Notes under the pieces: model-generated
The model's database searches: none
What the model was told of the DNA's origin: nothing
Seen by the model: only the letters and a program-made list of their open reading frames with translations
Shown here: positions 1,285-60,800 of the stretch, one piece after another
Layout of the letters: every line of letters starts with the position of its first letter
Numbering within the stretch: the first letter of the stretch is position 1
Made by a program: the position numbers and the translations under genes
Assembly (NCBI GenBank): GCA_028583605.1
Contig: CM053327.1
Location: forward strand, 37,270,126-37,334,125
Direction: 5' to 3'
Source: Dastarcus helophoroides
Lineage: Eukaryota; Arthropoda; Insecta; Coleoptera; Bothrideridae
DNA: 64,000 bases

Positions 1285-1295
1285 TTTTAATTTCT

Positions 1296-1714
1296 ATGCA
1301 AGTAGAATGCAACCTAGACTACAAATTCATACATCCCTTCAGGCCTGTATAGTGTAGTGAATCATAGGTAGCTGAACCACCAACAGTTGAAACACTGTCA
1401 CCTAGCGAAGCGGTTGCTCTCTAGGAAAAAGTTTCCAGAAGACAAGGATTCTAATGCACAGACCAATAGGTTTGAACATTTATTATATTCAAAGTTTGGA
1501 AACCAAAGACCGGTTTCGATCTTGTTAGATCTCATCATTTGGTATATTCAACTCGAATGCCAGCAAATGTTTCGACAAGTAAGTACTAAAGAATTCACAG
1601 ACGACAAGCGTGTGACTCTTAGTACTATTGGTCCATAGAGAAACTAGTGCCATCGCCAACAATGTCGTATGCAACTAGACTACAAATTCATGCAGCCCTC
1701 CAGGCGTGTATAGT
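1296..1714 (-). mobile_element. F1 element copy, over-unit-length, with 11 bp target duplication
   Basis: Direct copies of TTTTAATTTCT flank the element at 1285-1295 and 1715-1725. The phrase ctagactacaaattcat occurs at 1314 and again at 1675, so the monomer is about 361 bp and the insert is about 1.16 monomers. Other copies are at 59030-59506 and 54734-55670. A hammerhead motif is read from the minus strand at 1502-1543. The over-unit length and flanking duplication fit reverse transcription and integration of a circular or concatemeric RNA (inference). No protein is encoded. Confidence 0.8.
1502..1543 (-). ncRNA. hammerhead ribozyme remnant (F1, core damaged)
   Basis: Read on the minus strand: helix I strand ACCAAA, then TGATGA, helix II GATC-loop-GATC, GAAA, CCGGTC, and the second helix I strand TTTGGT. 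Compared with the intact copy at 55576-55618, the invariant first C of CUGANGA is missing, so this copy is probably inactive. Helix I (6 bp), helix II and the GUC cleavage triplet are kept. Confidence 0.72.
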
Positions 1715-27284: not shown

Positions 27285-27405
27285 CCTGAGTTTTTCTCTG
27301 AAGATGACAGCTTGACTGTCGAAACGCGTTAGAGCAACCTTTGTTGTGCTTTTTAATCATTCTTGTTTCAGGGAACAAGTTTTGTTTTTCAATTTTTACC
27401 TGACA
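27285..27405 (+). mobile_element. F2 element fragment with hammerhead-like hairpin
   Basis: CTGAAGA (27298-27304) is followed by a hairpin GACAG/CTGTC (27306-27320), GAAACGCGTT (27321-27330) and AGAG. After these comes the shared tail ttgttgtg, tttttaatc and a caagttttg word. The same order recurs in at least ten other places in this window. Confidence 0.75.
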
Positions 27406-28089: not shown

Positions 28090-29520
28090 AATAACTCGTT
28101 TTCAAATTTTGATTTTGGTCTCTTTAAATCTAAATGTCTTACTCCAGATTTTGGATTTATATATATATTTTTTTTCATTCTATTTCTAAAAAATGCGAGA
28201 TTAAGATAAAAATTTTGAGAAAAAAATATCGAAATTTTGACTTTGTTATCTTTAAATGTGAATGTATTTCTCCAGATTTTGGATTTATATATATAGTATA
28301 TATTTTTTTTCATTCTATTCCTAAAAAAGGCGTGATTAAGATAAACATTTTGGGAAAAAAAAGGTTAAAATTTTGACGTTGTTATCTTTAAATGTGAACG
28401 TCTTTCTCCAGATTTTGGGTTTACATTTTTTTCGTTTTTCTCCTAAATATTGCGAGATTAAGACGAGAATTTTGAGATAAATAGATCGAAATTTTAATTT
28501 CGTTATCTTTAAATGTGAACGTATTTTTCTAGATTTTGGGTTCACATTTCCTAAATATTGCGAGATTAAGACAAGAATTTTGGGAAAAAAAGATCTCCCA
28601 AATATTGCGAGATTAAGACAAGAATTTTGAGATAAATAGATGGAAATTTTGATTTTGTTATTTTTAAATGTGAATCTCTTTTTCCAGATTTTGGGTTTAC
28701 TTTTTTTCGTTTTTCTCCTAAAAAGTGCGAGATTAAGACAAGAATTTTGAGAAAAATTGATGGACATTTTGATTTTGTTATCTTTTATATGTGAACGTCT
28801 TTCTCTAGATTTTGGGTTTACTTTTTTTTTGTTTTTCTGCTAAATATTGGGAGATTAAGACAAGAATTTTGAGAAAAAAAGATCAAAATTTTGACTTTGT
28901 TATCTTTAAATGTGAACGTATTTCTCTAGATTTTGGGTTCACATTTTTTTCGTTTTTGTCCAAAATGTTGCGAAATTAAGACAAGAATTTTGAGAAAAAA
29001 AGATCGAAATTTTGACTTTGTTGTCTTTAAATGTAAATATATTTCCCTAGATTTTGGGTTCACATTTTTTTCGTTTTTTTCCTAAAAAGTGCGACATTAA
29101 GACAAGAATTTTGAGAAAAATTGATGGACATTTTGATTTTGTTATCTTTAAATGTGAACGTCTTTCTCTAGATTTTGGGTTTATTTTTTTTTGTTTTTCT
29201 TCTAAATATTGCGAGATTAAGACAAGAATGTTGAGAAAAAAAAATCGAAATTTGGAATTTGTTATCTTTAAATGTAAATGTATTTCTCTAGATTTTGGGT
29301 TCACATTTTTTTCGTTTTTTTCCTAAAAAGTGCGAGATTAAGACAAGAATTTTGAGAAAAATTGATGGACATTTTGATTTTGTTATCTTTAAATGTGAAC
29401 GTCTTTCTCTAGATTTTGGATCCACATTTTTTTCGCTTTTCTTCTAAATATTGCGAGACTAAGAAAAGAATTTTGAGAAAAAAAGATCGAAAATTTGATT
29501 CTAACCTTAAACTTTTAGAA
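28090..29520. repeat. tandem array, about 122 bp unit, around 11 copies
   Basis: The phrase agattttggg recurs near 28408, 28530, 28683, 28806, 28928, 29049, 29170, 29291 and 29412, most spacings 121-123. Each unit also has attgcgagattaaga and tttgttatctttaaatg. The same unit forms a second array at 34620-35360 in the same orientation. Confidence 0.92.
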
Positions 29521-33858: not shown

Positions 33859-36800
33859 CTGAAAGAAATCGCTGGTGGACTCGCTGGATACCAAAAATCA
33901 AGTAGAGGGGGTTTCTTTGAGAGAAACTACTCACCTGAGGACGTAATTCACGGATACGATGCAGTGGGGTCGGGATGACCTCGAATTGTGGACTATGGTC
34001 GCGTAGCTCTGCATCCATACCCATCCCCCGCCTTTGCTGAGGAATCGGTAATATTTCGTCGTTACCTGGCCTTTGCAGAGCACTGGAAAATACCCCATGT
34101 TAATCCGAAGAAAAATATACATATTTATGCCCCTACCTACGTATCAGTAATCATTTAAAAAATAATCTTTAAATTAAAAAAAAAGTTGCCAGGAATGGCA
34201 AATTCAACAACTTTTTTTTTGATTTAAAGATGGCGGGCAAAAATGTATCACATAATTGACGTTGGGAGTAGTTTAAAATAAATTTTTAGTTTTTTTTTGA
34301 AACATTCTCAAAATCCAAACATTTATCCTTCTTCCGATAATTTCAAATTTAAGCTCAAAATTTTGATTTTTTTTTAATTTAACTTAGTTCCAAAAATCTG
34401 AATGTAATCTCGTTTAAGGTCGACTTTTTTCTCGATATTTCTATAAAGTTTTTCTTCAATTCGATCTTTAATAGACTTTTTCCAAAATTCAAAGGTTGCA
34501 CCTTTCAATTTTTTTACTTGCTTAAAACCCCGTTTAGTTTCCATTTTTTTTTTATAACATTTCAAATGTAATCTAAGAATTATCCTTTCTTCTGGGATTT
34601 TTAACTTGTTTTGAAATTTTGACTTTGGTATCTTTAAATCTGAATGTCTTTCTCCAGATTTTGGATTTATATACTTTTATTCATTCTATTCCTAAAAAAA
34701 TGCAAGATTAAGATAAAAATTTTGGGAAAAAAAAGATCGAAATTTTGACTTTGTTATCTTTAAATGTGAACGTCTTTCTCCAGATTTTGGGTTTACATTT
34801 TTTTCGTTTTTCTCCTAAATATTGCGAGACTAAGGCAAGAATTTTGAGAAAAAAAGATCGAAATTTTGACTTTGTTGTCTTTAAATGTGAACGTATTTCT
34901 CTAGATTTTGGGTTCACATTTTTTTCGTTTTTCTCCTAAATATTGCGAGATTAAGACAAGGATTTTGAGATAAATAGATCGAAATTTTGACTTTGTTGTC
35001 TTTAAATGTAAATATCTTTCTCTAGATTTTGGGTTCACATTTTTTTCGTTTTTCTCCTAAAAAGTGCGATATTAAGACCAGAATTTTGAGAAAAAAAGAT
35101 CGAAATTTTGACTTTGTTGTTTTTAAATGTGAACATCTTTCTCTAGATTTTGGGTTCACATTTTTTTCATTTTTCGCCTAAACAGTGCGAGATTAAGACA
35201 AGAATTTTGAGAAAAATTGATAGACATTTTGATTTTGTTATCTTTAAATGTGAACGTCTTTCTCTAGATTTTGGGTTCACATTTTTTTCGTTTTTCTCCC
35301 AAATATTGCGAGATTAAGAAAAGAATTTTGAGAAAAAAAGATCGAAAATTTGATTCTAACCTTAAACTTTTAGGAACAATAAGCATTTCAAGTGTTTTTT
35401 TTTTTCATTTTTCTAGATTTTTATTCTTCTACTGAGTTTAAATTTTTTTCGAATTTTCCCCATTCTTGGAATTTGGTTCTTTTTGAAATCCTAGACTTTC
35501 TAATTCTATTTTCTGGAAATATGCATTTGTTTCTCAAAAATTTGGTTTTCACTGCAAATTTACTCGATAAAAGAGTAAAAATGTTGAAATAACCAATAAT
35601 TGGTAATTTTTAGACACTTCCACTTTTATCACAAAAATCGTCTTTTTTCGAAATTTGTTAGTATCTATCTGAAGATGACAGCTTGGCTGTCGAAACGCGT
35701 TAGAGCAACCTTTGTTGTGTTTTTTAATCTTTCTTGATTTCAGGGGACAAGTTCTGTATCTCAATTTTCGAAATTTCGCCTTGTCAAAAATTTAACTTCT
35801 TTCAAAATATGACTGTTGTAGACCTTATTCGAAATTGGAACTTTTTTCTCACAATTTCATTCTTTTACACAAAATTTTCACTTTCTTTTCAAAATTCGTC
35901 TTTTTCCTAGATCTCGACATTTTCTTTTAAATATCGTTTTTTTTAATTTCGACTTTATTTAAAATCCAATTGTCTTGAAATTTCGATTTGTTTGCTCAAA
36001 GTACGCCTCAAATTTTGGTTTTCTATTTGAAAATTCGAGCTTTTGCGTTACTTCTGCGTTTTCCTTTTAAATTCACGTTTGTTTCTTTGAAACTCATCTT
36101 TATTCTCAAAATTAAATTTTCTCTGGAAAATTTAGACTTTATTATAATTTGGCACTACTCGAAAGTTGTGTTTTTTTTTTTCAAAAATTTTCTTCCGAAA
36201 TTATTTTACCATTTTTCCCAAAAGTTGACTTTTTCTGCAAATCTTTCTTGAAATTTCGATTTGTTTCTTAAAATACGCCTCAAATGTTCATCTTTTATCT
36301 GTTATCTTTTTTGTGAAACATTTTCTTCCGAAATTATTTTACCATTTTTCCCAAAATTCTTTCCCAGTTCTTTAACGTTGTCTTGTTTCCTAAATTTGAA
36401 GTTTTTCTTTATTTACAATCCTACTTTCCTAAAATTTCGATTTGTATCTTAAAATACGCCTTAAATGTTCATCTTTTATCTGAAAATTCGAGATATTCCC
36501 TTGCTGCAAATTTCGATATTTTTCTATTAAATTCACGTTTTTTTCCCCTTGAAACTCATTTCATTTTAGAAAGTTTCATTTCATTCTCAAAATAAAATTT
36601 TCTCTGGGAAATTTCGACCTTACTTTTAATTTGACACTACTCGAAAGTTCTGCTTTTTTTTGAAAAATTTTCTTCCGAAATTATTTTACCATTTTTCCCA
36701 AAATTCGACTTTTTCTGCAAATCTCGATTTTTTAACGTTGTCTTGTTTTCTAAATTTGAAATTTTTCTTTATTTACAATCCAACTTTCTTGAAATTTCGA

Positions 36801-39800
36801 TTTGTTTCTTAAAATACGCCTCAAATGTTCATCTTTTATCTGAAAATTCGAGATATTCCGTCTTCTGCAAATTTCGATTTTTTTTCTTTTAAATTTCACG
36901 TTTTTTTTCCTTGAAACTCATTTCATTTTAGAAAGTTTCATTTTATTCTCAAAATAAAATTTTCTCTGGGAAATTTCGACCTTCTTTTAATTTGACACTA
37001 CTCGAAAGTTCTGCTTTTTTTTGAAAATTTTCTTCCGAAATTATTTTACCATTTTTCCCAAAATTCGACTTTTTCTGCAATCTCGAGTTTTTTAACGTTG
37101 TCTTGTTTTCTAAATTTGAAGTTTTTCTTTATTTACAATCCAATTTTCGTTGAAATTTCGATTTAGTTTCTTAAAATACTCATCAAACTTTCGTCTTTTA
37201 TTAGAAAATTCGAGCTTTTGCATTTCTGCAAATTTCGATTTTTTTTTCTTTTAAATTCAAGTTTTGTTTCCTTGAAACTCATTTCATTTTACAAAATTTT
37301 ATTTAATTCTCACAATAAAATTTTCTTTGGGAAATTTCGACCTTCTTTTGATTTGACAGTACTCGAAAGTTCTGCTTTTTTTTGAAAAATTTTCTTTCGA
37401 AATTATTTTACCATTTTTCCCAAAATTTGACTTTTTCTGCAAATCTCGAGTTTTTTAACTTTGTCTTGTTTTCTAAATTTAAAGTTTTTCTTTATTTACA
37501 ATCCAATTTTCTTGAAATCTCGATTTATTTCCTAAAATATTCCGCAAATTTTCGTCTTTTATCTGAAAATTGTCCATATTTCGATTTTTTTTTCTTTTAA
37601 ATTCATGTTTATTTCTTTGAAACTCATTTTATTTTAGAAAGTTTCATTTTATTCTCACAATTAAATTTTTTCCATGAAATTTCGACTTTCTTACAGTTTG
37701 ACGCTACTCGAAAGTTGTTCTTTTTTTCAGAAATTCCGAAATTAATTTACAATTTTTCCCAAAATTCGACTGTTTCTTCAAATCTCGAGTTCTTACTGTT
37801 TGAATGTTGTCTTCTTTTACAGAATCCAAAGTTTTTTTAGGTTCCCTAAAAAGAACATTTTTTTGGAAACTTCAAAATCTCCTGAAAATCTCTACTTTTT
37901 CCAATGATTTAGAATTTTTAATTTTGACATTTTGACTTTTTTCTCACAATTTTGAGATCTTTTGACTAAATTATGGGTTTTAGAAGCTTCCATTTTTTGT
38001 TCAAATTTTGTTAAATTTTACTTCTTTTCTCAATTTGGTATTAATTTCATAATTTCGATCTTAATCTTGAAATTTCGGCTTTTTTCTTGAAATTTTAAGT
38101 GTGCGTTCGAAAATTCAACTTACTTTCAAAACTTTCGATTTAAACTTGAAAATTTGGATTTTTTCTAATAATTTTGGGAGTTTTAGACAAATAATGAATT
38201 TATGAAGCTTTCCTTTTTTTCTCTCTCTTTTAAATTTTACTTTTTTCCTCAGTTTGGACATTCAATCCCTAAATTTCGAAACTTTCAGAAGGTTTTCAAT
38301 TATTAATGTTGACTTTACTTTCCAATTTTCAAGTTTCTTTTAAGTGTGAGTTCGAAAATTAAACTTATTAAATTTTCAATTTAAACTCGGAAATTTGGAT
38401 TTTTCGAATGACTTTGAGATATTTAGACAAATAATGGCTTTATGAAACTTTCATTTTTTTTCTCTAGGAAACGCTTTTAAATTTTACTTTTTTCCTCAAT
38501 TTCAGCATTCAGTCCCTAAATTTCGAACCTTTCAGAAGGTTTTCAATTGTTAATGTTGACTTTACTTTCCAATTTTCAAGTTTTTTTTTAGTGTGAGTTC
38601 GAAAATTGAACTTATTTTCGAAATTTTTAATTTAAACTTGGAAATTTGGGTTTTTTCTAATGATTTTGAGATTTTTAGACAATTAATGGCTTTATGAAAC
38701 TTCCATTTTTTTGTCTAGGAAACGCTTTTAAATTTTACTTTTTCCTCAATTTGGGCATTCAATCCCTAAATTTCGAAACTTTCAGAAGGTTTTCAATTAT
38801 TAATGTTGACTTTACTTTCCAATTTTCAAGTTTTTTTTAAGTGTGAGTTCGAAAATTGAACTTATTTTCAAAATTTTCAATTTAAACTCGAAAATTTGGA
38901 TTTTTCGAATGATTTTGAGATATTTAGACAAATAATGGCTTTATGAAACTTTCATTTTTTTTGTCTAGGAAAACGCTTTTAAATTTTACCTTTTTTCCTC
39001 AATTTCAGCATTCAGTCCCTAAATTTCGAACCTTTCAGAAGGTTTTCAATTGTTAATGTTGGCTTTACTTTCCAATTTTAAATTTTTTTTTAGTGTGAGT
39101 TCGAAAATTGAACTTCTTTTCGAAATTTTTAATTTAAACTTGGAATTTTGGATTTTTTTCTAATAATTTTGGGAGTTTTAGACAAATAATGGATTTATGA
39201 AGCTTTCCTTTTTTCTTTCTCGTTTAAATTTTAATTTTTTCCTCAATTTGGGCAATCAATCCTTAAATTTCGAACCTTTCAGAAGATTTTCAATTGTTAA
39301 TGTTGACTTTACTTTCCAATTTTCAACTTTTTTTTTTAAGTGTGAGTTCGAAAATTGAACTTATTTTCGAAATTTTCAATTTAAACTTGGAAATTTGGAT
39401 TTTTCTAAATTTGAGATATTTAAACAAATAATGGCTTTATGAAGCTTCCATTTTTTTGTCTGGGAATAGCTTGTAAATTTTACTTTTCAATTTGAGCATT
39501 CAATTTCTAAATTTCGAATCTTTCAGAAGGTTTTAAATTATTTATTTTGACAGTAATCTCTAAATTTCAACTTTTTTCTCGAAATTTTAAGTGTGGGTTC
39601 AAAATTTGAACTTATTTTTAAAATTTTTAATTGAAACTTCGAAGTTTGAATTTCTTGTAATCTTTTGAAATTTTTACACGAAAAATGGGTTTACGAAGCT
39701 TCCATTATTTTATAGATTTCGCTTGTAAATATTACTTTTTTCCCCAATTTCGACATTCAATTCTTAAATTTAGAATCTTTCAAAAGGTTTTGAAGAATTT

Positions 39801-42800: not shown

Positions 42801-45800
42801 AATCTATAACTATGCCAAAAATTTACAAAAAATTAGCCTAAAAATGATATCATTAAAAAAAATGATATCTGTTTTACAACTTTGAAAATAACATGTAAAT
42901 AATCAGTGGTACTTGAAAAAAATTAGTTATTGATTAATTATTTAAATTTGAACTGGAGAACCAAGCTATGGAACGCGTTACCGAAAGGAATTTTTCCCAA
43001 ACCTATCCTTGTTTAATTAGGCGGTTCATCGCCATCTATCCTTGTTTCCGCGTCCTATTCGTAGTGCTTTTGAAGGCATAATGCATAATTGCGAGTGGAT
43101 TAAAAAAAAAGCCACATCTACGGAAATAGAGTGATCAATGAAGGACGTAGGCAGTTGCAATCGCCGTCCAGATAAAAGGAGTAAATGAGTATCACTTACA
43201 CTTGATGATGAGCGAATCTCATCGCGAATATATCGCTTCCGTGAATGTAATGATAAAGCGTCTTCTCTATAAGATCCTGAGGTTCGTATCCCGTCAACTG
43301 CGCCACCCTGCAAAACAAAACATCTCTCTAGCCGCCAGCATCCCACTTCCTCTTCACAAATAATAACAGATAAGAGGGCGGATCCGGTTTCTCCTTTGAA
43401 AATAATGAGAATTAGACCACCTGACGATGCTCGATGTAATTTCATCCGCCCGCTTAAATGTTAAATTGGCAAACACATCGTTTTTTTCGCTTTCGATTCG
43501 AGGGGGCGCTAAACGAGCCACTTAGTTGCAAAAGTATCGATTACTAACCTGGCGTCCAAAAAGATAAGTTTCAGATCGAGGCTGGCTCGGAACATAAACA
43601 TGCTGGTGTAGAGCTTGATTTCTGTGATGGCGCTGGGTGGTAACGAGTGACCTACGGCGACCAGGCCCATGTTCTGGTAGCAGCCCTCGTACGGCGAAGA
43701 AGCTGCGTTGTATTGCTTGACTTTCAGGTATCCCGAACAATGAATCACCTGAAATTAATACAAAGAGAATTAAGCAAAAAATCAGAGATACTAGTAGATA
43801 TATCAGGGGGATTCTGCGTCAAATGACATCACAGAACAACTACTTGTCTAACAGTTGGTTTCAGTTGGACAGCTAGTTGTCTAAGCAAGTAGTTATTAAC
43901 AACCAACCAACTGTTAGACAAGTAGCTGTCCAACTGAAATCAACTGTTAGAAAAGTAGCTGTACAACTGAAACCAACTGCTAGACAAGTAAAACCAACTA
44001 TCAGACAAGTAGTTGTTCTGGAACGTCATTTGGCACAGAATCTCTTGAGATTAGGATGGGTATAATCTCGGAAAACTCTTTCAGGTACTCTCAAACTAAT
44101 TTAATGCTAATATTATAAAGAAAGAACATTTGATGGACTAAAGAACCTTGTAACCGCAGATCCGAAACTGGAGAAATCAAAAATAGGAAATTTGGACAGT
44201 TTATGGTATAGATCAGTAGTAAGAAAAAAATTTCAGAAATTCTTCATTTATGGGGTTAAAGGGGACATTTTCTAACCTCAAATTTTGTTAACAGAATCTG
44301 TTCACTTCGATTTTAATACTTTGATCAATAAGGGGGGGGGGGTGTAAAATTCGGAGAAAAAGTTGAAAGTTTCCTGGCAATATTGCTTTGTTTAAAAATT
44401 TTTACTTTTTCTTAAAACAGCCGAAATTTCCAGACAAAGACGTTTTTGGAGGAAAAAATGATATTTCTGGAAACGGAAAATGTCACTTATCACTTTTACA
44501 GTTCCGGATTACCTGTGGTAATTCCCCAAAGGCCCAACGTCGCTCAAGGACCCCCTGAAGAAATCTCGAAATAGAAACGAATTAAAAAAGTCGAAATTTT
44601 GAAAAAAATTTGAAAATGTTTTCAAGTCAGTTTCTTCATAAAGTTTAATTTTAAAAAACCTTGAATTTTGGGGAAAAATCAAAATTTCGAGAACAGATGA
44701 ATTAGAAAACGTTTAAATTGTCAGAAGAAGAAGCAACTTGGGCAAAATTGCAAAGTTTCTTAAGAAAAGACGAATTTTCAAGATAAATTCGAATTTTTGA
44801 GATTTTCGAAGAATCAGAATTTCAGAGATACTTAAATTTTATGAAATAAGTCGAATTTTGCGAATAAAATTACTTACGAATAGTTAAATGTCGAAGAAAG
44901 AGTCGCATTTTGGGGAAAATGAAGAAATCTTGAAAAAATTAAATTTGGAAAAAATTTTGATAAAAGATCCAAATCAAGTTTCGATTTAAAATTTCGAAAA
45001 TAAGTTCAATTTTCGAACCCACCCAGAAACGAAAAATGACATAGTTTCGTATTATCCATGATAATTCCCTATATGCCCAACGTCGCTCAAGGATCCTCTA
45101 AAGAAATCTTGAAATAGAGACGAATTAAAAAAGTCGAAATTTTGAAAAAAAATTGGAAATGTCGTCAAAAGTCAGTTTCTTTATAAAGTTTAATTTAGAA
45201 AAACCTTGAGTTTTGAGGAAAAATCAAAATTTCGAGTACAAATGAATTAGAAAACATTGAGATTGTCAGAAAAAGAAGCAACTTAGGCAGAATTGCAAAG
45301 TTTTTAAAGAAAAGACCAATTTTCAAGATAAATTCGAATTTTTGAGATTTTCGAAGAATCAGAATTTCAGACATAGTTAAATTTTATGAAATAAGTTGAA
45401 TTTTGGGAACAAAACTACTTACGAATACTTAAATGTCGAAGAGAGAGTCGCATTTTGGGGAAAATGAAGAAATCTTGAAAAAATTAAATTTGGAAAAAAT
45501 TATTAGAAAAGATCCAAATCAAGTTTTAATTTAAATTTTCGAAAATAAGTTCAATTTTCGAACCCACACAGAAACGGAAAATGACATAGTTCCGGATTAT
45601 CCATGGTAATTCCCTATAGGCCCAACGTCGCTCAAGGACCCTCTGAAGAAATCTCGAAATAGAGACGAATTAAAAAAGTCGAAAGTTTTGAAAAAAAATT
45701 GGAAATGTCTTCAGAAGTCACTTTTTTCATAAAGTTTGATTTTGAAAAACCTTGAATTTTGGGGAAAAATCAAATTTTCGAGAACAGATGAATTAGAAAA

Positions 45801-48800
45801 CGTTGAGATTGTCAGAAAAAGAAGCAACTTAGGCAAAATTGCAAAGTTTTTAAAGAGAAGACGAATTCTCAAGATAAATTCGAATTTTTGAGATATTCGA
45901 AGAATCAAAATTTCAGAGATATATAAATATTATGAAATAAGTCTAATTTTGGGAATAAAATTACTTACAAATAGTTAAATATGAAGAACTCTTGAAAAAA
46001 TTAAATTTTGAAAAAATTATAAAAGATCCAAATTTCAATTTAAAATTTCAAAAATAAAAAAATCTTGAAAAAATTAAACTTTGAAAAGTTTATAAGAAAA
46101 GATCTAAATTTTCCAAGTTTAAATCGAAAATTTCGAAAATAAGTTGAATTTTCGAACTCAAAACTTAAAAACTTAAAAAAAAGTGAAAATTGGAAAGTAA
46201 AGCTAACATTAACAGTGAAAACCTTCTGAAAGCTTCCAAATTTAAGAATTGAATGCTGAAATTGAGGAAAAAAGTAAAATTTAAAAGCGTTTCCTAGACA
46301 AAAAAATGGAAGTTTCATAAAGCCATTATTTGTCTAAAAATCTCAAAATCATTAGAAAAAACCCAAATTTCCAAGTTTAAATTGAAAATTTCGAAAATAA
46401 GTTCAATTTTCGAACTCACACTTAAAAAAAAGTTGAAAATTGGAAAGTAAAGTCAACATTAACAATTGAAAACCTTCTGAAAGGTTCGAAATTTAGGGAT
46501 TGAATGCTGAAATTGAGGAAAAAAGTAAAATTTAAAAGCGTTTCCTAGACAAAAAGAATGGAAGTTACATAAAGCCATTATTTGTCTAAAAATCTCAAAA
46601 TCATTAGAAAAAATTCAAATTTCCAAGTTTAAATTGAGAATTTTGAAAATAAGTTCAATTTTCGAACCCACACTTAAAATTTTCAAAAAAAGTCAAAATT
46701 TCTAGTCCTAAGGTCGAAATTAAGACTTCAAAATTTTTGAAAAGATTCTAAATTGAAGAATTGAATGTTGAAATTGGGGAAAAAAGTAATATTTACAAAC
46801 GAGATCTATAAAAAAAAATGGAAGCTTCGTAAACCCATTATTCGTGCAAAAATCTCAAAATTATTAGAAAAAATCCAAATTTCCAAGTTTAAATTAAAAA
46901 TTTCGAAAATACGTTCAATTTTCGAACTCACACTTAAAATTTCGAGAAAAAAGTTGAAAATTGGAAAGCAAAGTCAACATTAACAATTGAAAAGGTTCGA
47001 AATTTTGGGATTGAATACCCAAATTAAAGAAAAAAGCAATATTTAAAAAAGTGACCTAGAAAAAAAGGAAAGCTTTATAAAATCCATTAGTTGTTTAAAA
47101 CTCCCAAAAATATTAGAAAGAAGTCCAAATGTCCAAGTTTAAATTGAAAATTTTGAAAGTAAGTTGAATTTTTAAACGTACACTTAAAATTTCAAGAAAA
47201 AAGTCGAAATTTCAAAAATAAGATCAAAATCAAGGAATTAATACCAAAATTGAGAAAAAAAAAGTAAAATTTAAAAGCGTGAAATTTGAACAAAAAATGG
47301 AAGCTTCTAAAACCCATAATTTATTTAAAAATTTCGAGATTGTGAGAAAAAAGTCAAAATGTCAAGATTAGAAATCAACTGTTAGAAAAGTAGCTGTACA
47401 ACTGAAACCAACTGCTAGACAAGTAAAACCAACTATTAGACAAGTAGTTGTTCTGGAATGTCATTTGGCACAGAATCTCCCTGATATATCTACTGATACT
47501 CTTTGTCATAATTTTGATAAAACCTAAAAATTGTATTTTTTTGGTAGAACGGACTAGTCCTTAGTTATCTTCAAAAATTGAAGTCACTGAAACCAAGAAA
47601 GTTTAAAAAACACAACAACAGTTGCTCTAACGCTGTTTCGATAGTCAAGTATCTCTCTAGAAGCTGATAGTTTGGCTATCGAAACGCGTTAGAGTAACTG
47701 TTGTTGTGTTTTTTAATCTTTCTTGGTTTCATAAAGATTGGAGATTGGGATTAAGGATTTTGATAAACTAAAAAATTTGGAAAAAGCCAAACTTTCGACG
47801 AAATCACGGTCTCCCACGCTCATGTGATGGGAGTTATCCTTCTGGTTTTTATTTATTCTTGTGCTTGCGGTCAATTTTTAAATTTTGATTTTTGTGGATT
47901 ACTTGATGGCCATCATTAAAAAAGAAGAAGAATCATACCCTTAGGGTTGGTAAAGATGGGAGGTTGTGAAAAATGTTTTCATTTTTCAATTATCACCAAG
48001 TAAATTTGGGTAATATTTTAATGAACCTAAATCAAAAATAGTTTAATTTGGTCAATTAACCTGATGACTAGTAGTTGGTAGGGAACCTCTTGGCTGTCAA
48101 GAAGCCTCATAGCAAATTCTATATTTTATGTTCTGATTTGTTAGATTGTCCCATTTTCTTGTTATTAAATTTCGCCCAATATTCATCCATGAATCATTAT
48201 TAGCCTCGAATGATGGAGAATTATGATGCATTTGCAACATTAATAAAGGTGCGATAAATCGTCGGGACCGGACGGAAAGACAACTGGTGGCTGGGATTTT
48301 GATCTACGTAATGTATGCGTGGACACACAATGGGGGGCGCGTGATGGCAACAATAGACCTTAAACTTCCCTTTTAGTTTTCAGCTAGACCAATACTTTCT
48401 ACTAACCGTCAACGTCAAATATCACAATATTTTAACATTAACTACTCGACATAACACCCGTTGTGTTTGTTTTCCTTGAAAGGTATCTGTAAATATTGTT
48501 TTTTCCTTCGCAAAAGTATCGTTCTGCAAGTTATTCATATTTTTACATCAATTTGAATGGTATGCATCACAACTGAGAAAATAACGTCGGTGCTCCTAAT
48601 TACACAGCGCTGAGAGACATCGAAAGACTGCTGATGCAGGAAAAAACTCGAGAGATTTCACATGCATACACGCTACTTTGTTCTTTTATTAAGTAGATGC
48701 AAAGTAGCTCTTATTCGCTCGTATTCAGATAAGATCCTGCATGATTAGATAACTAACTACTAATTTACACATCATAGGCTCAAATTTTCTTTGTAACGTC

Positions 48801-51800
48801 GAAGTCTCGAGTAATTCTGAATAGGGGCTTATAGCTGTGAACACGCATATGGAACACATGTAAATTTTTAGATCACTGGTGCCTTGCACTCAAGAAACAA
48901 AATGCAAAACACTACAGCGCTCGACAAAGACTTATACTGTGCAAAACGTACAAACGTACAACGTACAAAAACCTTCTTATCAACTAGATGGATTACAAGA
49001 ATCCTCACCTAAATCTTTTTTTATATTTCCTGGGTTCTACCTAACGAAAAAACCAATTTATATGATCGAGTTTTGTTCCACACAAAATTGGAAATCACAG
49101 AAAAAATATGAGCATTCGAAAGAGAGAAAAGAGCTCCGAAACGCACCAGGAGCCTGAAAATAATGAGAAAACGATAGTTAACCGTACGGATGATTAGGGA
49201 CTGGTGGTACGCGGCTCTTTAAAGTTGCCGGGGCACCGCCCATAGCCATCCTCAATTATATACTCCTTCATAGATGCGCAGTAACTCAAAACCACCCGGA
49301 AATTAGTGATATGTTGATTAATCTAATGCTATCTAGTTACATTTTTACATTTAAACAATGCCACAGTACTTTTTTTGGACATTACAAAATAAAAAACTAT
49401 CCACCTGAACCGAATTTATTTTGTAAATTCCTCTCACAATCAAGAGATATTTTGACCTTCGAGATAGACGTCGAAATTTTGAGTTGATGGTAAAAACTTT
49501 GGAAATAAGTCAAAAGTTTAGAAAATTTTTCGAAATTCACGTTTAAAAAATCCAAATATATTTTAATTCCATGCTAAAAGGACAACAGAAAAAAATTCAC
49601 TTATTGAGAAAGCTCGTATACGAAAAATAAATACAAAATAAATAAAATAAAAAATAAATACAAAATTTAAATCCAAATTTCGATTTTTGACTTGAAATAC
49701 AATTTTCAGTTTTAAACTGAAACATTTCGGTGCTCGAAATTTCGAGAATTTTTAAATCTAAACAAGAAATTTTGAGAAAAGAGGCCAAAGTTCAATACCA
49801 CAATTAATTTTGATGGAACAGACTGGTCCTTGGTTATCTTTCAAAAATTGATACACAAATCTTGCCCCCTGAAACCAAGAAAGATTAAAAAACACAACAA
49901 CAGTTGCTCTAAGTTGCCCTGAAGATGATAGCTTGGCTGTCGAAACGCGTCGTTGACTTTTTTAATCTTTCTTGGCTTCAGGGGACAAGATTATCAATTT
50001 TTGAAGATAACCAACGACCAGTCCATATCAAAATTAATTTTGGTATTGAACTTTGGCCTTTTTTTTCTCAGAATTTTGTGTTTAGAGTTAGATTAAAAAA
50101 CACAACAGTTGCTGTAACGGTATCTCTCTAAAGATGATAGCTTGGCTGTCAAAACACGTTTGAGCGACTGTCGTTGAATTTTTTAATCTTTCTTGGCTTC
50201 AGGGGACAAGATTATCAATTTTTGAAGATAACCAAGGACCAGTACATACCAAAGTTAATTTTGGTATTGAACTTTGGCCCTTTTTTCTCAAAATTTCGTG
50301 TTTAGATTTAGATTAAAAAACTAAACTATTGCTGTAACGGTATCTCTCTAAAGATGATAGCTTGGCTGTCGAAACACCTTTGAGCGACTGTTGAATTTTT
50401 TAATAATATATATAATAATATAATATTTAAACATTCTCATCCTTTAAATCCCAGATTTAGAAATTCTCCTTGAGTCAAATTCCTGGATTTTGACATTTTA
50501 TTTCAAGATTCTAGATCTAGAAATGACATTCAAATTTCTCGATTTAAAGACCATTGTTCGTTCATTTCACTATTTGTGGATCCTTCTCTAAACCTATTTA
50601 CTCTCTTCATTGAGGTTTCTATGTTTTGAAATCATCATTAGCTGAGTAAATTTCTAGTCCTAGAAATTCTCCTATTTTTAAATTTCATGATCATTTTCTT
50701 TTTCCAATCTTTTTTATATCTAAAGATACCCGTTCTCCAAATCTCAGATGTAGAGATTTTTTTTTTAGATTTTTGGATTTCGAAATTTTATTCCAAAATT
50801 CTAGATCTAGAAATGCTATCTTTCAAATTTCTCGGTTAGCATTTCAATATTTGTGGATCCTCCTTTAGACCTATTAATTATCTTGATTAGGGTCTCTGTG
50901 TTTAGAAATGTTCGTTCGCCGAGTAAATTTCTAGATCTAGAAATATCTTATTTTTAATTTCGGGATCATTTTCTTTTTCTTGCTTTTTTATACTCAAAGA
51001 CACTCGTCCTTCAAATCCCAAATCTAGAGATTTCCCCTTCTTTCAAATTTTTGGATTTCGAAATTTTCTTGCAAAATTCTAGACCTAGAAATCCCATCTT
51101 TCAAATTTCTCGATTTAAAAACCTTTTTTCGTTAATTTCATTATTTCTGGATTCTCCTCTAAAGTTATTAATTCCCTTCATTTGGAGTTTCTCTGTTTAG
51201 AAATCTTCATTCAAATTTCTAGGTCTAGAAATTCTTTTATTTTTAAATTTTGGGATCATTTTTTCTACAGTCTTTTTTATATTTAAATATTCTAATCCTT
51301 CAAATCCCAGATTTAGAGATTCTCCTTTCGTCAAATTCCTGGATTTTGAAATTTTATTCCAAAATTCTAGATCTAGAAATGCTATTTTTCAAATTTCTCG
51401 GTTAGCATTTCAGTATTAGTGGATCCTCCTTTAGACCTATTTATTATCTTGATTAGAATCTCTGCGTTTAGAAATGTTTGTTCGCCGAAAAAATTTCTAG
51501 ATCTAGAAATATCTTATTTTTAATTTCGGGATCATTTCCTTTTTTTGCCTATTTTATACTCAAAGACACTCGTCCTTCAAATCCCAGATCCAGAGATTTT
51601 CCCTACTTTCAAATTTTTGGATTTCGAAATTTTCTTGCAAAATTGTAGACCTAGAAATCCCATCTTTCAAATTTAAAAACCTTATTTCAACATTTGTGGA
51701 TCCTTCTCTAAACCTATTTACTCTCTTCATTGAGGTTTCTATGTTTTGAAATCATGAGTAAATTTCTAGTCCTAGAAATACTCCTATTTTTAAATTTCGA

Positions 51801-54800
51801 GATCATTTTCTTTTTCCGATCTTTTTTATATCTAAAGATACTCGTCCTCCAAATCCCAGATGTAGAGATTCCTTCTTTCTCAAGTTTCTGGATTTCGAAA
51901 TTTTACTCCAAAAACTCTAGATCTAGAAATGCCATTTTTCAAATTTTTCGATTTAAAGACCATTGTTCGTTCATTTTAATATTTGTGGATCCTTCTCTAA
52001 ACCTATTTACTCTCTTCATTGAGGTTTCTATGTTTTGAAATCATCATTAGCTGAGTAAATTTCTACTCCTAGAAACTCTCCTATTTTTAAATTTCGGGAT
52101 CATTTTCTTTTTCCGATCTTTTTTATATCTAAAGATACTCGTCCTCCAAATCTCAGATGTAGAGATTCCTTTTTTTTTTCAAGTTTATGGATTTCGAAAT
52201 TTTATTCCAAAAATTCTAGATCTAGAAATGTCATCTTTCAAATTTCTCGATTTTAAGACCATTCTTCGTACATTTCGTACATTTTCAATATTTTGTAAAT
52301 ATATTGTAATCTCTCCTCTAGAATTATTAATTCTCTTCATTTGGGTTTTTATGTTTAGTAATGTTCACTGACTGAGTAAATTAATAGATCTAGAAATTCT
52401 CTTTATTTTTTAAATTTCAGAATGATTTTCTTTTTCTTGTCTTTTTTATATATAAAGATACTCATCCTCCAAATCCCAGATCTAGAGATTGTTTCTTTTT
52501 CAAATTTTTGGATTTCGAAATTTTCTTTCAAAATTCTAGACCTAGAAATCCCATCATCCAAATTTCTCGATTTGAAGAAGTTTTTTCGTGCATTTCATTA
52601 TTTGCGGATCTTCCTCTAGACCTATTAATTCCTCTTCATTTGGGGTTTCTATGTTATAAAAATGTTCATTTAAATTTCTAGATCTAGAAATTCCCTTACT
52701 TTTAAATTTGGGGATCATATTTTCTCTAGTCTTTTTCTCGTCCTTCAAATCCCATTATTTAGAGATTCCCTTTTTTTTTCAAATTTCTGGATTTCGAAAT
52801 TTTATCCAAAATTCTAGATCTAGAAATACCATTTTCCAAATTTCTCGATTTAAAGACCAGTCTTCGTTAATTTCAATATTTGTGGGATCACTAGAACTAT
52901 TAATTACTCTTCTTTTATATCTAGAAATGTTCATTTGCTGAGTAAGTTTCTAGATCTAGAAATTCTCTTATTTTCAAATGTCCGAGCATTTTTTTGGTTT
53001 TTTTATATATTTAAAGCTGCTTGTTCTCCAATTCGTCTAATATAGAGATTTCTCCTTTTTCGGTTAACTGGATTTTGAAATTTTCTTCCAAAATTCGAAT
53101 TCTAGAAATACAATGTTTCGAATTTCTCAATTTAAATAGGTTTTTTTATTCCCTTCACTATTTTGGATCCAGACTTATTATTTCCACTCGAGTTTCTATA
53201 TTTTATTAACTATATTTCATTAACTAAGTAAATTTTCTAGATCTAGATATTTCCTATTTTCAAATTTCCAAACTTGCGTTCCGATTTTTATATTTAAAGA
53301 TTCCCATTCTCTAAATCTAAAGCTTGGCCTTGATCTAAAGATCTTTTTTGTTGATTTCACAACTCGCAAATTCATTTTGATCAAGAAATTATTTTCTCCG
53401 AAATTTTTATGTTCAGGAATCCTCTTTAGGTAAATTTCTAGATCTGTAAATTATTTTTGATTTTTAAATTTTCTTACTTGACACTATCTTATTGTGATTT
53501 TTTCCATTTAAAGATTCTCATTTGCCAACCCCTCAGACAGCTGGATTTCTCTTTTATATTATTTTTAGATTTCGAATTTGTTTTCCAAAATTTCAGATCT
53601 AGAAATCAGCCAAATCGAAACACTATTTTTGGTCGATTTCAAAATTTGTGGATTCTCTTCCAAATCTATAAAATTCGGGTATCTCTCTGAAGATGATATC
53701 TTGGCGTTAGAGCAACTATTGTTGTATTTTTTAATCTTTCTTGGTTTCAAGGGACAGAATTATCAAATTTTGAAGATAACCAAGGACCAGTCCATACCAA
53801 AATTAGTTTTAATATTGAACTTTGGCCTTTTTTTTCTCAAATTGTCGTGTTTAGAGTTAGATCAACAAACACAACAGTTGCTGTAACGGTATCTCTCTAA
53901 AGATGATAGCTTTGCTGTCGAAATGCATTAGAGTTGTTGCGTTTTTTCAATTTTTCATGGTTTCAGAGGACAAGATTTTTATATAAATGTTTATCCAAAA
54001 TTAAGTTTAAAGACGAAAATTTTTAATGAAGGAACTTTCGAATTTAAACTCGAATGAAAAGTTGAGAAAAAAATCAAAATGGGATCATCGTCATTATAAT
54101 GAAACATGTCAAGATTTTACAAAATTTAGAATTAGATTTTTCAGTGAAAGTATGTCAAAATTTTGGGGGGAAACTCGACGTTTCCAAACTCGTTATTTGT
54201 AAAGGAAATGTTCAAGTTCAATCCACTCGCAAATGGCGAAATTTCGGATTTATTCTGGAAGCTTTAGCATCGATTTTTGAATTAGAGATTTAGTCTCAAG
54301 TTTACCATTTTTTCAAAAATTCAAGACTAAAGTCGAAAGGTAAAGGATGAAGGCCAAAAGTTCGGGGATCAAATTTGAAATTTAGGGTAATTTTGCACTT
54401 TTTTCTCAAAGTTTGGATAATTTTACATTTATAAAAAAAATCATCAAATTTTCAAGTTTTAAAATTTCAAACTTGAACTCAATATTTTTGGACGAAATTG
54501 ATTGAGAAAATTCAGAATCAATTAATTCATTCTGAGCGTTAGAATGAAATTTGGAGGAAGAATTTGTAAAAATATTTGCCTTTTCAGGTTTAAATATGTC
54601 AGAATTTTAAATATTCGACTGTTTGCTCGAATTTTATTTTATTTTATTTTTTTAGAAAAATCGAAGTTATGAGAGAACAGTTTTTAGTAAATTTAATTTT
54701 ATTTTAACTTAGACTCGAAATTTCCATGCAAGTAGAATACAACAATCTAGACTTCAAATTCATGCAGCCCTCCAGACGTGTATAGTGAATCATAAGGTAG

Positions 54801-57800
54801 CTGAACTACCAACAATTGAAACACTTGCCACCTAGCAAGGCGGTTGCTCTCTAGGAAAAAGTTCCCAGAAGACAAGGATTCTAATTTTTGGTGGAACAGA
54901 CTGGTCCTTGATTATCTTCAAAAATTGAAATACAGAACTTGTCCCCTATTTCTGAAGATGAGAGCTTGGCTGTCGAAACGCGTTAAAGCAACGTTTGTTG
55001 TGTTTTTTAATCTTTCTTGGTTTCCGTATCTCTCTGAAGATGACAGCTTGGCTGTCGAAACGCGTTAGAGCAACGTTTGTTGTGTTTTTTAATCTTCCTT
55101 GGTTTCAGTATATCTCTGAAGATGACAGCTCGGCTGTCTAAACGCGTTAGAGCAACGTTTGTTGTGTTTTTTAATCTTTCTTGGTTTCAGTATCTCTCTG
55201 AAGATAGCAGCTTGGCTTTCGAAACGCGTTAGAGCAACGTTTGTTGTGTTTTTGAATCTTTCTTGGTTTCAGTATTTCTCTGAAGGTAACAGCTTGGCTT
55301 TCGAAACGGGTTAGAGCAACGTTTGTTGTGTTTTTTAATCTTTCTTGATTTCAGGGGACAAGTTCTGTATTTCAATTTTTTAAGGATTCTAATGCACAGG
55401 ACCAATAGGGTTGAACATTTATTAGATTTGAAGTTTGGAAACCAAAGACCGGTTTCGTTCCTGTTAGATCTCGTTAGTTTGGTATATCCAACTCGAATTT
55501 GGAAACCACAGACAGCGACCTTGTTAGATCTCAGTCAGTTTGGTATATCCTAGCTCGAATTCGAGTTGGTGATATACCAAACTGACGAGATCTAACAAGA
55601 TCGAAACCGGTCTTTGGTTTCCAAATTTCGAATCCAGTAAATGTTCAAACCTATTGGTCTGTGCATTAGAATCAAAATTTCAAATTTAATCCCAAAATTT
55701 GTACTTTTTTTTAAAGAAATTCTGAAAAAATTACCTGAATTTAAATTGAAATTTCGACACTTTCACCCAAGTTTTTAAATGTGGATTCTTTTTAAAATTT
55801 GATTTCACACAAAATCTAAGCTTTCTATAACTTTCTATAGCGTTGTTTTTTGTCTTCATTTTTTCTTGAAAAAGTTCTGGCTTAAGCTTTACTTTTACTT
55901 AAAATTTCTTTAGAACCAAAATTTCTAATCATTTTTTTCTAAAGTTCGGTCCTTTCTCGAAACTTTGGTGTTAATCACGAAATAACTTTCGTAAGTTTCG
56001 AGAGAAAAATTAGAGATTCATAAAGTAAAAATTTATTGCAATTTAAAGTTTAAATTCGAAATGAAAGGACCAGCGTAAGGACCGGTGTAAGGACCACAAA
56101 AACAAATCAAGTTCAAGGGACTTTGAGTTTAAAGTTGAAATTAAGTGAAAAATTCAATATTTATAAAAAGAAAATTAGGTTTTGAGTGAAAATTTTGAGA
56201 AGAAGAAAAGAGAGAAGGAGGAGTAGAAGAAGAAGAAGAAGAAAAAAGAAGAATTGTGGAAAAATGAAGGGGGAAACAGAAGGAGAGAAGAAAAAGGAAA
56301 AACAGTAGAAGAACTCAAAACATAGATTGTAAAGCCGAAATGAAAGTAAAAAACATTTTCTAAAAAAAAAGTCAATTTTATAAGTCGAGTGGCTCACAAT
56401 TTCGAACTCAAGCCAAAATGTTAGAAAAAAACGTAAATTGAGTTTTGGTGGAACGGAATGGTCCTTGGCTATCTTCAAAAATTCAGTATCTCTCTGAAGA
56501 TGATAGTTTGGCTGTGGAAACGAGTTAGAGCAACCTTTGTTGTGTTTTTTAATCTTTCTTGGTTTCAGGGGACAAGTTTTGTACTCCAATTTTCGTAAAT
56601 TGAGAAAAAAAAAATAGGTAGGTTGAGTTTAAACTCTAAATTTTGAAAAAAGAAATCGAAATTTTAAGATTATAGTGGAACTTTTGGAGAAATGTCGGAG
56701 CTTTGGGAAATAGCCCAGATTTCAAATTTACTGTCGAAATTTTACAAAACGTCAAAATTCTTACATTAAAGTTCGAAATTTCGAAACAAAGTCGAACTTT
56801 TCAGACTATGGTCCAAATTTCGAGAAACAAGTCGAAATTTAAAAAAAACGTAGAAATTTCGAGAAAAAAAGGCGAAATTTAAAAAAAAGTCGACATTTCG
56901 AAAGAAAAGTCGGAATTTCGAGAAAAATGTCGAAATTTTGATAATAAGGTCGAAATTTCGAGAAAAAAGTCAAAATTTGAAAAAAACGTAGAAATGTCGA
57001 GAGAAAAAGTCGAAATTACGAAATATTTCGAGAAAAAAGTCGATATTTTGGAAAAAAGTGGAAAATTGAGAAAAAAAAACCAAATTTCGAGAAAAAGTCG
57101 AACTTTTCAGACCAAGGTCGAAATTTCGAGAAAAAAGTCGAAATTTGAAAAAAACGTAGAAATGTCGAGAGAAAAAGTCGAAATTACGAAATATTTCGAG
57201 AAAAAAGTCGATATTTTGGAAAAAAGTGGAAAATTGAGAAAAAAAAAGCCAAATTTCGAGAAAAAGTCGAACTTTTCAGACCAAGGTCGAAATTTCGAGG
57301 AAAAAGTCGAAATTTGAAAAAAACGTAGAGATTTCGAGAAAAAAAGTCGAAATTTAAAAAAAAAAGTCGAAATTTCGAAAGAAAAGTGGATATTTTGAGA
57401 AAAATGTCGAAATTTTGACATTAGGGTCAAAATTTCGAGAAAAAACTAAAAATTTGAGTAAAAAGTCGAAATTACGAAATATTTCGAGAGGAAAGTCGAA
57501 ATTTGAGAAAAAAGTCGAAATTTCGAGAAAAAAAGTCCAAATTTGCGAAAAAAGTAAAAATTTCGAGAAAAAAAGTCGAAATTTTAAAAAAAGTCGAAAT
57601 TTCGAAGCAAAAGTCGAAATTTGGAGAAAAATATCGAAATTTTGATAATAAGGTCAAAATTTCGAGAAAAAAGTCAAAATTTGAGAAAAAGGTCGAAAAT
57701 TAAGAAAAAAAACGATATTTCGAAAAAAAAGTCGAACTTTGAGAAAAACGTAGAAATTTCTAGAAAATTTGAGAAAAAAATCAAAATTTCGAGAAAAAAA

Positions 57801-60800
57801 GTCGAAAATTCGAGAAAAAAAGTCCAAATTTGCGAAAAAAGTAAAAATTTCGAGAAAAAAAGTCGAAATTTAAAAATAAAATCGAAATTTCGAGAAGAAA
57901 AGTCGAAATTGGGGAAAAAAGTAAAAATTTCGAGAAAAAAAGTCGAAATTTAAAAAAAGAGTCAAAATTTGAGAAAAAAGTCGAAATTTGAGAAAAAAAA
58001 CGAAATTTTAAATAAAAAGTCGTACTTTTCAGATTAAGGTCGAAATTTCGAGAAAAAAGTCGAAATTTGGGAAAAACGTAGAAATTTCGAGAAAAAGTCG
58101 AAATTTGCGAAAAAAGTAGAAATTTCGAGTAAAAAAGTCCAAATTTAAAAATAAAGTCGAAATTTAGAGAAAAAAAATCGAAATTTGCAAAAAAAGTAGA
58201 AATTTCGATAAAAAAAGTCGAAATTTAAAAAAAGTCAAAATTTGAGAAAAACGTCGAAAATTGAGAAATAAAAGGAAATTTCAAAATAAAAGTCGAACTT
58301 TTCATATTAAGGTCGAAATTTCGAGAAAAAAGTCGGAAATTCATAATTATTAAACTTTATTAACGATTAGAACAACAACAGATATTAAACATTCCACAAT
58401 GTTATTGTTCTAATCGTTAATAAAGTTTAGGATCAAATTTCACCAGCGTCGTTTCTCAAAAAAAATCCCTACGCTACATTTTATTTCAGATTATAAAGTG
58501 TTTCAGTCACGTCATTAAATTTAAGAGAAATACTAATACGTGATTAATTTGTTTTATTCTATATCTATGCTAAATAATCAAAACATATTTTAAACCCCCT
58601 TACAGACTGTCACTGATTCCAAGCAGGTTCGATATTACTAGATAAGGTGACAACTGCTCCAAAATTTGCAATCTGGAATCGTTAGAAACAAAACATTGTT
58701 GAAGTTTTAGGTTATCCTTGAAAGAAGAAAGAATAAATCGGCATCGCTTTTCCCATAAACGTTTGTCGATTGTGATCGCAAAATATAGTTAATGTGAAAT
58801 CGCTAACATCGCAGAATATTTTAAAAATAAATGGGTAGAAAGTAGCTACTACTCCAGAAACATTTTCAGTTTTGAGTTTTGCGAATTTATGAGGAAAGCA
58901 GTTGATCCGACTGAAATGTTGTTGTTTGCAGGCGAATCGTTTTTTTTTTGCTTAGCGCCACAACCCCCAAATAGTTCAAAAAAGTCGGCATGTAGCTTGG
59001 GAAAGTTAACGCTTGGGCTACGTTTGTTTCTATAATGCACAGACCAATATAGGTTTGAACATTTATTAGATTCGAAGTTTGGAAACCAAATACCGGTTTC
59101 GATCTTGTTAGATCTCGTCAGTTTGGTATATCCAACTCGAATGCTAATAAATGTTCCGACAAGTAAGTACTAAAACATTCACAGGCGTCAAGCGAGTGAC
59201 TCTTTAGTACTACCACCTATTGGCCCATAGAGAAACTGTGGCCATCACCAACAATGTCGTATGCAAGAAGAATGCAACCTAGACTACAAATTCATGTATT
59301 TGGTTTCCAAACTTCGAATCTAATAAATGTTCAAACCTATTGGTCTGTGCATTATGGAATCCTTGTCTTCTGGGAACTCTCCTAGAGAGCAACCGTTTCG
59401 CTAGGTGGCAGTGTTTCAACTGTTGGTAGTTCAGCTACCTATGATTCACTATACACGCCTGGAGGGCTACATGAATTTGTAGTCTAGGTTGCATTCTTCT
59501 TGCATACTACGTTTGTTTGGTAAGTTTTTTATAAACAACAATCTAACCGTCATCGCCCATAAATATTTAATATGCTTGAATTTGAATAATCCGGATGCTT
59601 AAGCATCGAACATTAATTTTGTCGATGCCTCATTTTTTAGGTTTTCTATTTTAATTTTCGTTGTTTGATTTTCGTGCATTTTTTACATCATTTATTTTTT
59701 AGAATCTCCGTTTTAGTTTTGGTTTTGTTTGAAATACAGGACTTGACCCCTGAAACCAAGAAAGATTAAAAAACACAACAAACGTTGCTCTGTTTTTAAA
59801 TCTCTCTTGGTTTCAGGGGACAAGTTCTGTATTTCAATTTTTGAAGATAACCAAGGACCAGTTGATTAAAGAAATTAAAAATGTAACTATATGTGCAATT
59901 ATTTTCCCATTAGTTTTAAGTTACTCATCAGTTAACGATATTTGCTATCAGCAGTCTTCCTTATGCATCAAGTTTGGTTGACAAACGCCCCAGAAAGAAT
60001 CTTTTTAGTCCAGTTTTATCTTGGAATTCTGATTTAACATATCTTGTGGTCGAACATTCGAATTTTGAACGGACGACCAGTTTTCCCAAAGAAGAAATTT
60101 ACACCTAAAGACGCCAGGTTCCATTTTCAGTAAGATAACTGCAGACTAGTTGTCTAATTTTTTTTTTGGTAGAACGGACTTGTCTTTGATTATCTTCAAG
60201 AGAAACATTTGCTGTATTGTTTAATTTTCTTGGTTTAAGTTGACAAGCTTTGTATATCAATAGCTGTCTTACTGTTGGGACGAGATTTGGGGTCAGAACC
60301 CCCATTGCCTATCTACTACCTACCTTGTATCCGCCGTTGGTAAGTCCAGCGTTTCGTTTGGCCAGTACGCACTTCATCCTCAAAAAGAAGGCTCTTTCGC
60401 ACTCGTAGTCCTGCAGGGGCGGCGTGCCAGGGGGCGGCATTGTCGGACTAAGCACCGCCGTCATTTCAGTCGTGATCCGCCGGATGTATGTACTCGTATA
60501 TGCTATTGCCGGTTAATTCTACCTAGAACAGTACTATTTCATGGAGAATCCCCCCAATATTTTGACCGGTAAGAAGGTCTTACCCCTACCTGTGATAATC
60601 CTAAATGAACAGAAGCGGTTTCCGATATGTACATGATTTTTCCATCGGGGGCCACGACGAATATGAAACCGTCGAGAGTTTGGAGAAGGTAGGAGCCCAG
60701 TTCTTTGATGAGAGACTCACGAGGGTTCGGTATGGCCAGCGTTGCTCCCCAAGCGTCACCTAGACCTTCAACAATTGTGAACAATTGTGTCATAGAGAAA

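Follow-up and report, generated by a model that had tools for sequence, protein, structure and literature searches.

A hammerhead-bearing element with two fixed insertion ends in the beetle Dastarcus helophoroides, a probable insect retrozyme

Results

The locus and its hammerhead

The window, i.e., the whole 64,000-nucleotide stretch of Dastarcus helophoroides DNA analyzed here, contains exons of a neuron navigator (NAV/sickie-like) gene at 5464-5976 and 10159-10620 (+) and, at about 61.5-61.7 kb (-), an exon-like match to a HIF1A-type bHLH domain, followed further along, in another frame, by a weak PAS match. Many tandem arrays lie in one stretch, at 15164-25382, 28104-29500, 34613-35353, 36366-39791, 46090-47213 and 50563-52249, their periods ranging from about 110 to 500 bp. 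A long hairpin at 43844-43954 gave weak microRNA-model matches on both strands, below the gathering scores. The window also carries copies of two repeat families, F1 and F2. F1 is dispersed in the genome and has a unit of 377 nt, each unit with one type I hammerhead.

The hammerhead at 55576-55618 (+), which reads ACCAAA-CTGACGA-GATC-TAACAA-GATC-GAAA-CCGG-T-C-TTTGGT, is real as a motif. An earlier, sequence-only reading had reported all invariant hammerhead positions here, and these were confirmed base by base. Likewise, the sequence bears out a helix I of 6 bp (55576-55581 with 55613-55618) and a helix II of GATC/GATC with a 6-base loop (55589-55592 with 55599-55602). CTGACGA lies at 55582-55588, GAAA at 55603-55606 and CCGG at 55607-55610, and the predicted cut falls after 55612 (all +). 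The outer TTGG/CCAA pairing beyond an internal loop is also possible in this copy, the internal loop of which is two bases longer than in other F1 copies. The type I layout is thus complete in its invariant core bases, its three helices and its open helix I, with helix III being a 6-nt palindrome only.

The hammerhead letters alone prove little, since a loose pattern gave 2 matches in the window against 0.7 expected. A strict descriptor that requires helices I, II and III matched intact hammerheads at 55582 (+) and 59121 (-) only, and none of 300 dinucleotide shuffles of the window. No Rfam family was found in the window at gathering scores. At a relaxed threshold, RF02275 (Hammerhead_HH9, of amniote origin; gathering score 52) matched 55566-55635 (+) with 32.6 bits (E 2.5e-4), 59068-59139 (-) with 34.4 bits and 1484-1556 (-) with 31.3 bits, and a 341-base scan added 55424-55495 (-) with 26.9 bits. 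The covariance-model search proposed in the sequence-only reading thus did return a hammerhead model, although only below its gathering score; this also holds for the hammerheads of the F1 arrays described below (32.6-33.5 bits).

F1 copies in the window

Window-against-window BLAST, together with reading of the sequence, gave three F1 insertions, A/D, B and C, with five hammerhead copies. Two of these are intact (55582 (+) with GTC and 59121 (-) with GTA; both GUA and GUC are cleavable hammerhead sites) and three are broken. Unit positions are numbered from the first base after the hammerhead cut, and sites 1 and 2 are the two end sites defined below. Copy A/D is a head-to-head pair that was afterwards split by an F2 insertion. 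Its inverted arm (55559..55673, +; BLAST of the array unit) ends at site 1 (unit 63), while the other arm comprises a hammerhead side (55382..55560, -), with two broken hammerheads at about 55424-55495 and 55496-55560, and a remainder (54726..54883, -) ending at site 2 (unit 207). The F2 insertion within it (54886..55381, +) consists of five 82-bp hammerhead-like units and is bordered by AAGGATTCTAAT at 54874-54885 and 55382-55393. The flanks of copy A/D have only 7 nt in common.

Copy B consists of an arm with an intact hammerhead (59028..59296, -; C3 at 59121, GTA), ending at site 1 (unit 61), and another arm (59296..59513, +) ending near site 2 (unit 207-215, as BLAST enters the flank), and has an exact 12-bp duplication, CTACGTTTGTTT. 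Copy C is a single arm of about 1.15 units (1295..1714, -) with a hammerhead that lacks C3, an end at site 2 (unit 208) and an exact 11-bp duplication, AGAAATTAAAA. No open frames of at least 120 aa overlap the F1 copies of the window.

Arrays and units elsewhere in the genome

All F1 places considered here come from one genome search (538.9 Mb, 50 contigs), which gave 103 matches, with 40 of 1828 candidates scored. The search yielded L001-L008, to which 30 more regions were added. Once L001 and L002 (the window itself), L029 (the same as L006) and L009 (100-base probe) were set aside, the sample consisted of 38 places, 35 of them genomic regions and three of them pieces of the window. Two regions, L010 and L011, are F1 arrays with a 377-nt period, the former with seven intact hammerheads and the latter with 5 hammerheads. 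In L010, about 3.6 units on one strand stand head to head with 3.0 on the other, and its five complete units show no differences among them. The units of L011 differ by 2-4 substitutions, as do those of L010 from those of L011. The flanks have 12 nt (L010) and 13 nt (L011) in common, partly overlapping the BLAST ends. At the inner junction of L010 (about 2401-2404), both arms start at unit 208-209, beside site 2, and the + arm therefore makes almost exactly three laps; this array could contain an assembly error. A single full unit between two cut sites is present at L015 (379 nt) and at L018 (366 nt). Overall, these arrays have the form expected of an animal non-LTR retrozyme (tandem repeats of about 150-450 bp, each containing a single type I hammerhead), and the GC content of F1 (0.42) lies below 50%, as in such elements.

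An intact core was found in 49 of the 63 distinct F1 copies at the 38 places. Among these 63, H17 is A in 37, C in 25 and T in 1, never G, and N7 is C in 58 and T in 5. Core conservation was considered as a mark of selection and rejected: in an earlier set of 47 copies, 20 of 517 core cells (11 positions) were changed versus 46 of 1332 in the flank, and 95% of random column draws gave a value no higher than that of the core. As the core changes as often as its flanks, nothing indicates that the copies have been constrained after insertion. Arm ends at the ribozyme cut were likewise rejected as a cleavage footprint. The inversion junction of copy B does fall at the predicted cut, with a 3-nt ambiguity. 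However, only 3 of 47 arm 5' ends lie there (P 0.057), or 3 of 66 once more arms were included, and the genome thus does not prove cleavage.

Two fixed ends, one per arm

All 66 F1 arm ends at the 38 places fall at two sites of the unit, 35 at site 1 (56-66) and 31 at site 2 (202-220). These classes were set after 47 arms, a set in which the copy A/D arm split by F2 was entered as two, and 20 arms from ten later places agree with them. Head-to-head pairs use one site per side in 26 of 27 cases, which none of 100,000 permutations reached; the sole exception, L061, has site 2 on both sides. No tail-to-tail pair was found among the 38 places. The single arms (n = 12) end at site 1 in nine cases and at site 2 in three, and have varied starts. 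A start at unit 310-340 was seen in 39 of the 54 paired arms and in none of the 12 single arms. Because so many paired arms start in this interval, at which the joined arms form a palindrome, many pairs may go back to a common head-to-head ancestor and would then not be independent events. An arm starting outside 300-345 occurs in eight pairs chosen by eye (L010, L011, L013, L014, L023, the second pair of L024, L068 and window copy B), all of which are mixed.

The flanks point in addition to target duplications of more than 4 bp, as known from retrozymes. At least 8 nt are in common at 23 of the 38 insertions with both flanks (39 insertions in all), compared with 1.3% of 1406 mismatched pairs, and at least 10 nt at 18 of 38, compared with 0.2% of the 1406; the other 15, copy A/D among them, have fewer than 8 nt in common. 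Among two-armed insertions, 14 of 26 have at least 8 nt in common, the share of two-armed insertions being biased because the search query ends near site 1, with the hammerhead in both directions. The marks left by the F1 copies suggest reverse transcription of RNA that begins at two fixed points.

Predicted folds of the core, the dimer and the circle

The lowest-energy fold of the isolated F1 core (-10.8 kcal/mol) is not a hammerhead, the hammerhead fold having -5.8 kcal/mol. The latter value is that of helices I and II; including the A-U pair above the tetraloop raises the sum to -0.1 kcal/mol (ViennaRNA). Helix III has no loop, and ACCGGU can be fully paired only with a second copy. Two cores are predicted to form a double hammerhead of -20.5 kcal/mol versus 2 x -5.8 kcal/mol (ViennaRNA), while another pairing mode of two cores is better still, at -24.0 kcal/mol. 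The sequence-only reading had pointed to the minimal type I hammerheads of PLEs (Penelope-like elements) and animal retrozymes, which have a short, self-complementary helix III and cleave best as dimers. The loopless palindrome of helix III stands, whereas F1 is not fully of the minimal PLE type, because helices I and II and their internal loop follow the HH9 architecture. The palindrome and the modeled double-hammerhead energy fit the dimer idea.

The joined arms of copy B give a unit of 377 nt, equal to the array period. As a circle, this unit is predicted to fold at -132.4 kcal/mol, compared with -91.7 +- 6.1 kcal/mol for 200 shuffles (z -6.7, 0/200), with helix II and 5 of the 6 helix I pairs formed. 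One of 40 control stretches went beyond this z, and it overlaps an F2 hairpin. The unit of copy C is less stable as a circle (z -2.8). A stable, self-paired circle that allows the hammerhead, as described for retrozymes, is thus predicted for copy B and, more weakly, for copy C.

F2 and the Penelope-like elements of the genome

The F2 core, CTGAAGATGAYAGCTTGGCTGTCGAAACGCGTT, contains the palindromic ACGCGT and agrees with the hammerhead layout except for one extra base ahead of helix II. Its copies in the window lie at 27298, 35669, 47657, 49919, 50128, 50348, 53897, 54952-55280 (five units) and 56494 (all +). Rfam gave no hammerhead model on the F2 array at E values up to 10. Over 13 copies, 89% of the cells are paired. 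Changes on both sides occur in four pairs, a number reached by 1 of 500 shuffles, although one control slid by +3 has five. The inner arm ends of three copies (49808-50023, 59729-59862 and 60164-60261) lie at most 2 nt from the predicted cut; as a footprint, this 3 of 13 (P 0.009, with ends taken from BLAST rows) was not counted as shown. The window has six F2 copies with two arms; by reading, four of them have an extra tail on one arm, the exceptions being those at 47.5 and 49.8 kb.

Hammerheads within PLEs have reportedly been described in earlier papers. The D. helophoroides genome holds PLEs, with 91 GIY-YIG matches above the cut-off. One locus (L035) has RVT_1 and GIY-YIG in one frame, with stops read as X, and another (L034) has a 417-aa frame, the listed relatives of which include insect RT/GIY-YIG proteins. 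Of the 28 of 91 matches that were compared, 11 have an F2 arm in the same orientation as the GIY-YIG domain and no more than 1500 nt downstream of it, compared with 2 same-strand upstream, 4 opposite-strand downstream and 4 opposite-strand upstream, and F2 lies 280-314 nt behind the domain at 5 of the 28. F2 is therefore probably the terminal part of some PLEs in this genome.

The F1 unit sequence was not found in the 28 GIY-YIG loci, and no significant similarity to PLE loci was detected; the strict hammerhead descriptor gave no match on ten GIY-YIG loci. Neither RT nor GIY-YIG was found on either strand of the window between 44.1 and 63.9 kb, and F1 thus differs from a PLE in its coding content. 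On the other hand, F1 has PLE-type anatomy, with inverted halves and a one-sided tail in 26 of 27 pairs and flanks with at least 8 nt in common, as expected of a target duplication, in 14 of 26 two-armed insertions. Because F1 has no sequence in common with the 28 loci, its link to PLEs rests on this shared anatomy, by analogy with which we infer that PLE machinery may move F1, copying RNA from both target strands.

Discussion

The sequence-only reading took F1 for an insect retrozyme-like element, a view that gains support from the NAV/sickie-type exons, the insect PLE relatives, the 377-nt unit, the hammerhead-bearing tandem units, the target duplications and the lack of frames of at least 120 aa. 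At the level of sequence, F1 has the traits of animal non-LTR retrozymes that were examined, with cleavage and circles being predicted. We consider it likely that F1 is an animal-type (non-LTR) insect retrozyme copied by a Penelope-like reverse transcriptase from two RNA sites. F1 RNA oligomers would self-cleave after H17. Since the ACCGGU palindrome that forms helix III has no loop, double hammerheads would probably do this best, and the monomers would be closed into circles. Circles or oligomers would then be templates for the reverse transcriptase, with the cDNA of each arm starting at unit 56-66 or 202-220 and two-armed insertions nearly always having one of each. Reverse transcription would be primed from both cut target strands, with one site per strand, after which the two cDNAs would join. 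Several laps, or an oligomeric template, would result in arrays of identical units. The genomic copies themselves are inserted either as a single arm or as a head-to-head pair of arms, in many cases with a duplicated target. A more specific version, which we offer tentatively and judge somewhat likelier to be wrong than right, has one RNA circle held by a dimeric Penelope-type complex, the target strands cut about 12 bp apart, and one cDNA per strand made from a different fixed site over several laps.

LINEs also show head-to-head inversions, by twin priming, and variable duplications. A retrozyme moved by LINE-type machinery, with the inversions being ordinary twin priming, would share both features with F1, and comparison of F1 with PLE loci gave no sequence link. 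However, 26 of the 27 pairs mix two fixed sites and none is tail to tail, and the closest parallel in the available portions of the literature examined is the inverted pLTRs of PLEs with a tail on one of them (PMC3846280), so we regard this explanation as unlikely. The head-to-head form, with arms meeting near unit 310-340, might instead be a fixed element copied whole, such as a MITE-like DNA transposon or the product of one master transcript, in which case the paired ends would be no record of repeated two-sided reverse transcription. The clustered starts of the paired arms, absent from the single arms, and the fixed position of both outer ends speak for such an element. It is nevertheless improbable, given that the eight by-eye pairs with starts elsewhere are all mixed, that the twelve single arms reach the same two ends from varied starts, and that multi-unit arrays occur within one insertion.

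That the arrays are ordinary satellite DNA spread by unequal exchange, with the hammerhead as a passive passenger, would agree with the tandem period and with a core that has no extra conservation, yet appears extremely unlikely in view of the 12 and 13 nt shared by the flanks of L010 and L011, the two opposite arms in each, and the dispersed single arms with the same ends. A hammerhead that is a chance resemblance or inactive is hardly more credible and, in our judgment, very unlikely: the score below the Rfam gathering value, the other fold preferred by the isolated core and the unconstrained core are in its favor, while the absence of strict matches in 300 shuffles, the intact core of most distinct copies and an H17 that is A, C or T but never G argue against it.

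If the more specific version, with one RNA circle and a dimeric Penelope-type complex, is true, retrozymes would be satellites of PLEs that insert by two-strand, two-site target-primed reverse transcription. F1 gives a testable rule for the machinery that moves retrozymes, namely two fixed start sites, one per arm. The five identical units within one insertion of L010 look like a fresh record of the copying of a circular or uniform tandem template.

Comparison with known systems

F1 has no exact matches in viral contigs or in bacterial and archaeal genomes, and F2 none in viral contigs, which says little as these are non-insect collections. The F1 hammerhead shares with RF02275 HH9 the same helix I (6-bp inner part), the internal loop, the 4-bp helix II and the 6-nt loop, and differs from it in its score below gathering and in the absence of a helix III loop. 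Its helix III is like those of HHR_Amex1 and a newt satellite, likened by description only, which the available parts of PMC7229834 and PMC6155905 describe as weak, a single base pair carrying a palindromic tetraloop, and which are said there to act as dimers. The pDo500 satellite of Dolichopoda cave crickets, also likened by description only, is another insect repeat with a hammerhead in every unit; as far as the available part of PMC2837043 goes, its hammerhead is better conserved than the remainder, whereas F1 shows no extra core conservation.

Animal non-LTR retrozymes of coral, mussel and axolotl have, in the available sections of PMC7229834, a non-coding tandem unit of 150-450 bp with a type I hammerhead, a GC content below 50%, duplications of more than 4 bp and a unit predicted to be highly self-paired. 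F1 has unit size, hammerhead type, GC content, duplications and predicted self-pairing in common with them. Because the same sections already name insects among the animals with such hammerhead repeats, there is no novelty in an insect retrozyme itself. For retrozymes, the available portions of the literature examined do not describe head-to-head insertions in which each arm uses a different one of two fixed start sites. The sections of PMC7229834 also consider PLEs strong candidates for moving animal retrozymes, on the basis of coexistence and common traits.

F1 is unlike PLEs in its 377-nt unit, in the lack of any RT or GIY-YIG found with it and in its non-minimal helices I and II. In the available excerpts, the PLEs of Adineta vaga carry inverted pLTRs at their borders, one with a 31-bp tail, together with 8-10 bp duplications and palindromes where copies meet head to head (PMC3846280), and a lizard PLE shows reverse transcription from two adjacent internal sites, with both target strands cut (PMC11167929). 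While the two sites of F1 lie about 150 nt apart, compared with the 31-bp tail in Adineta (PMC3846280, as available), F1 resembles these PLEs in its inverted halves, one-sided tail, palindromic junctions, duplications and two start sites, as far as the excerpts of PMC3846280 and PMC11167929 describe them.
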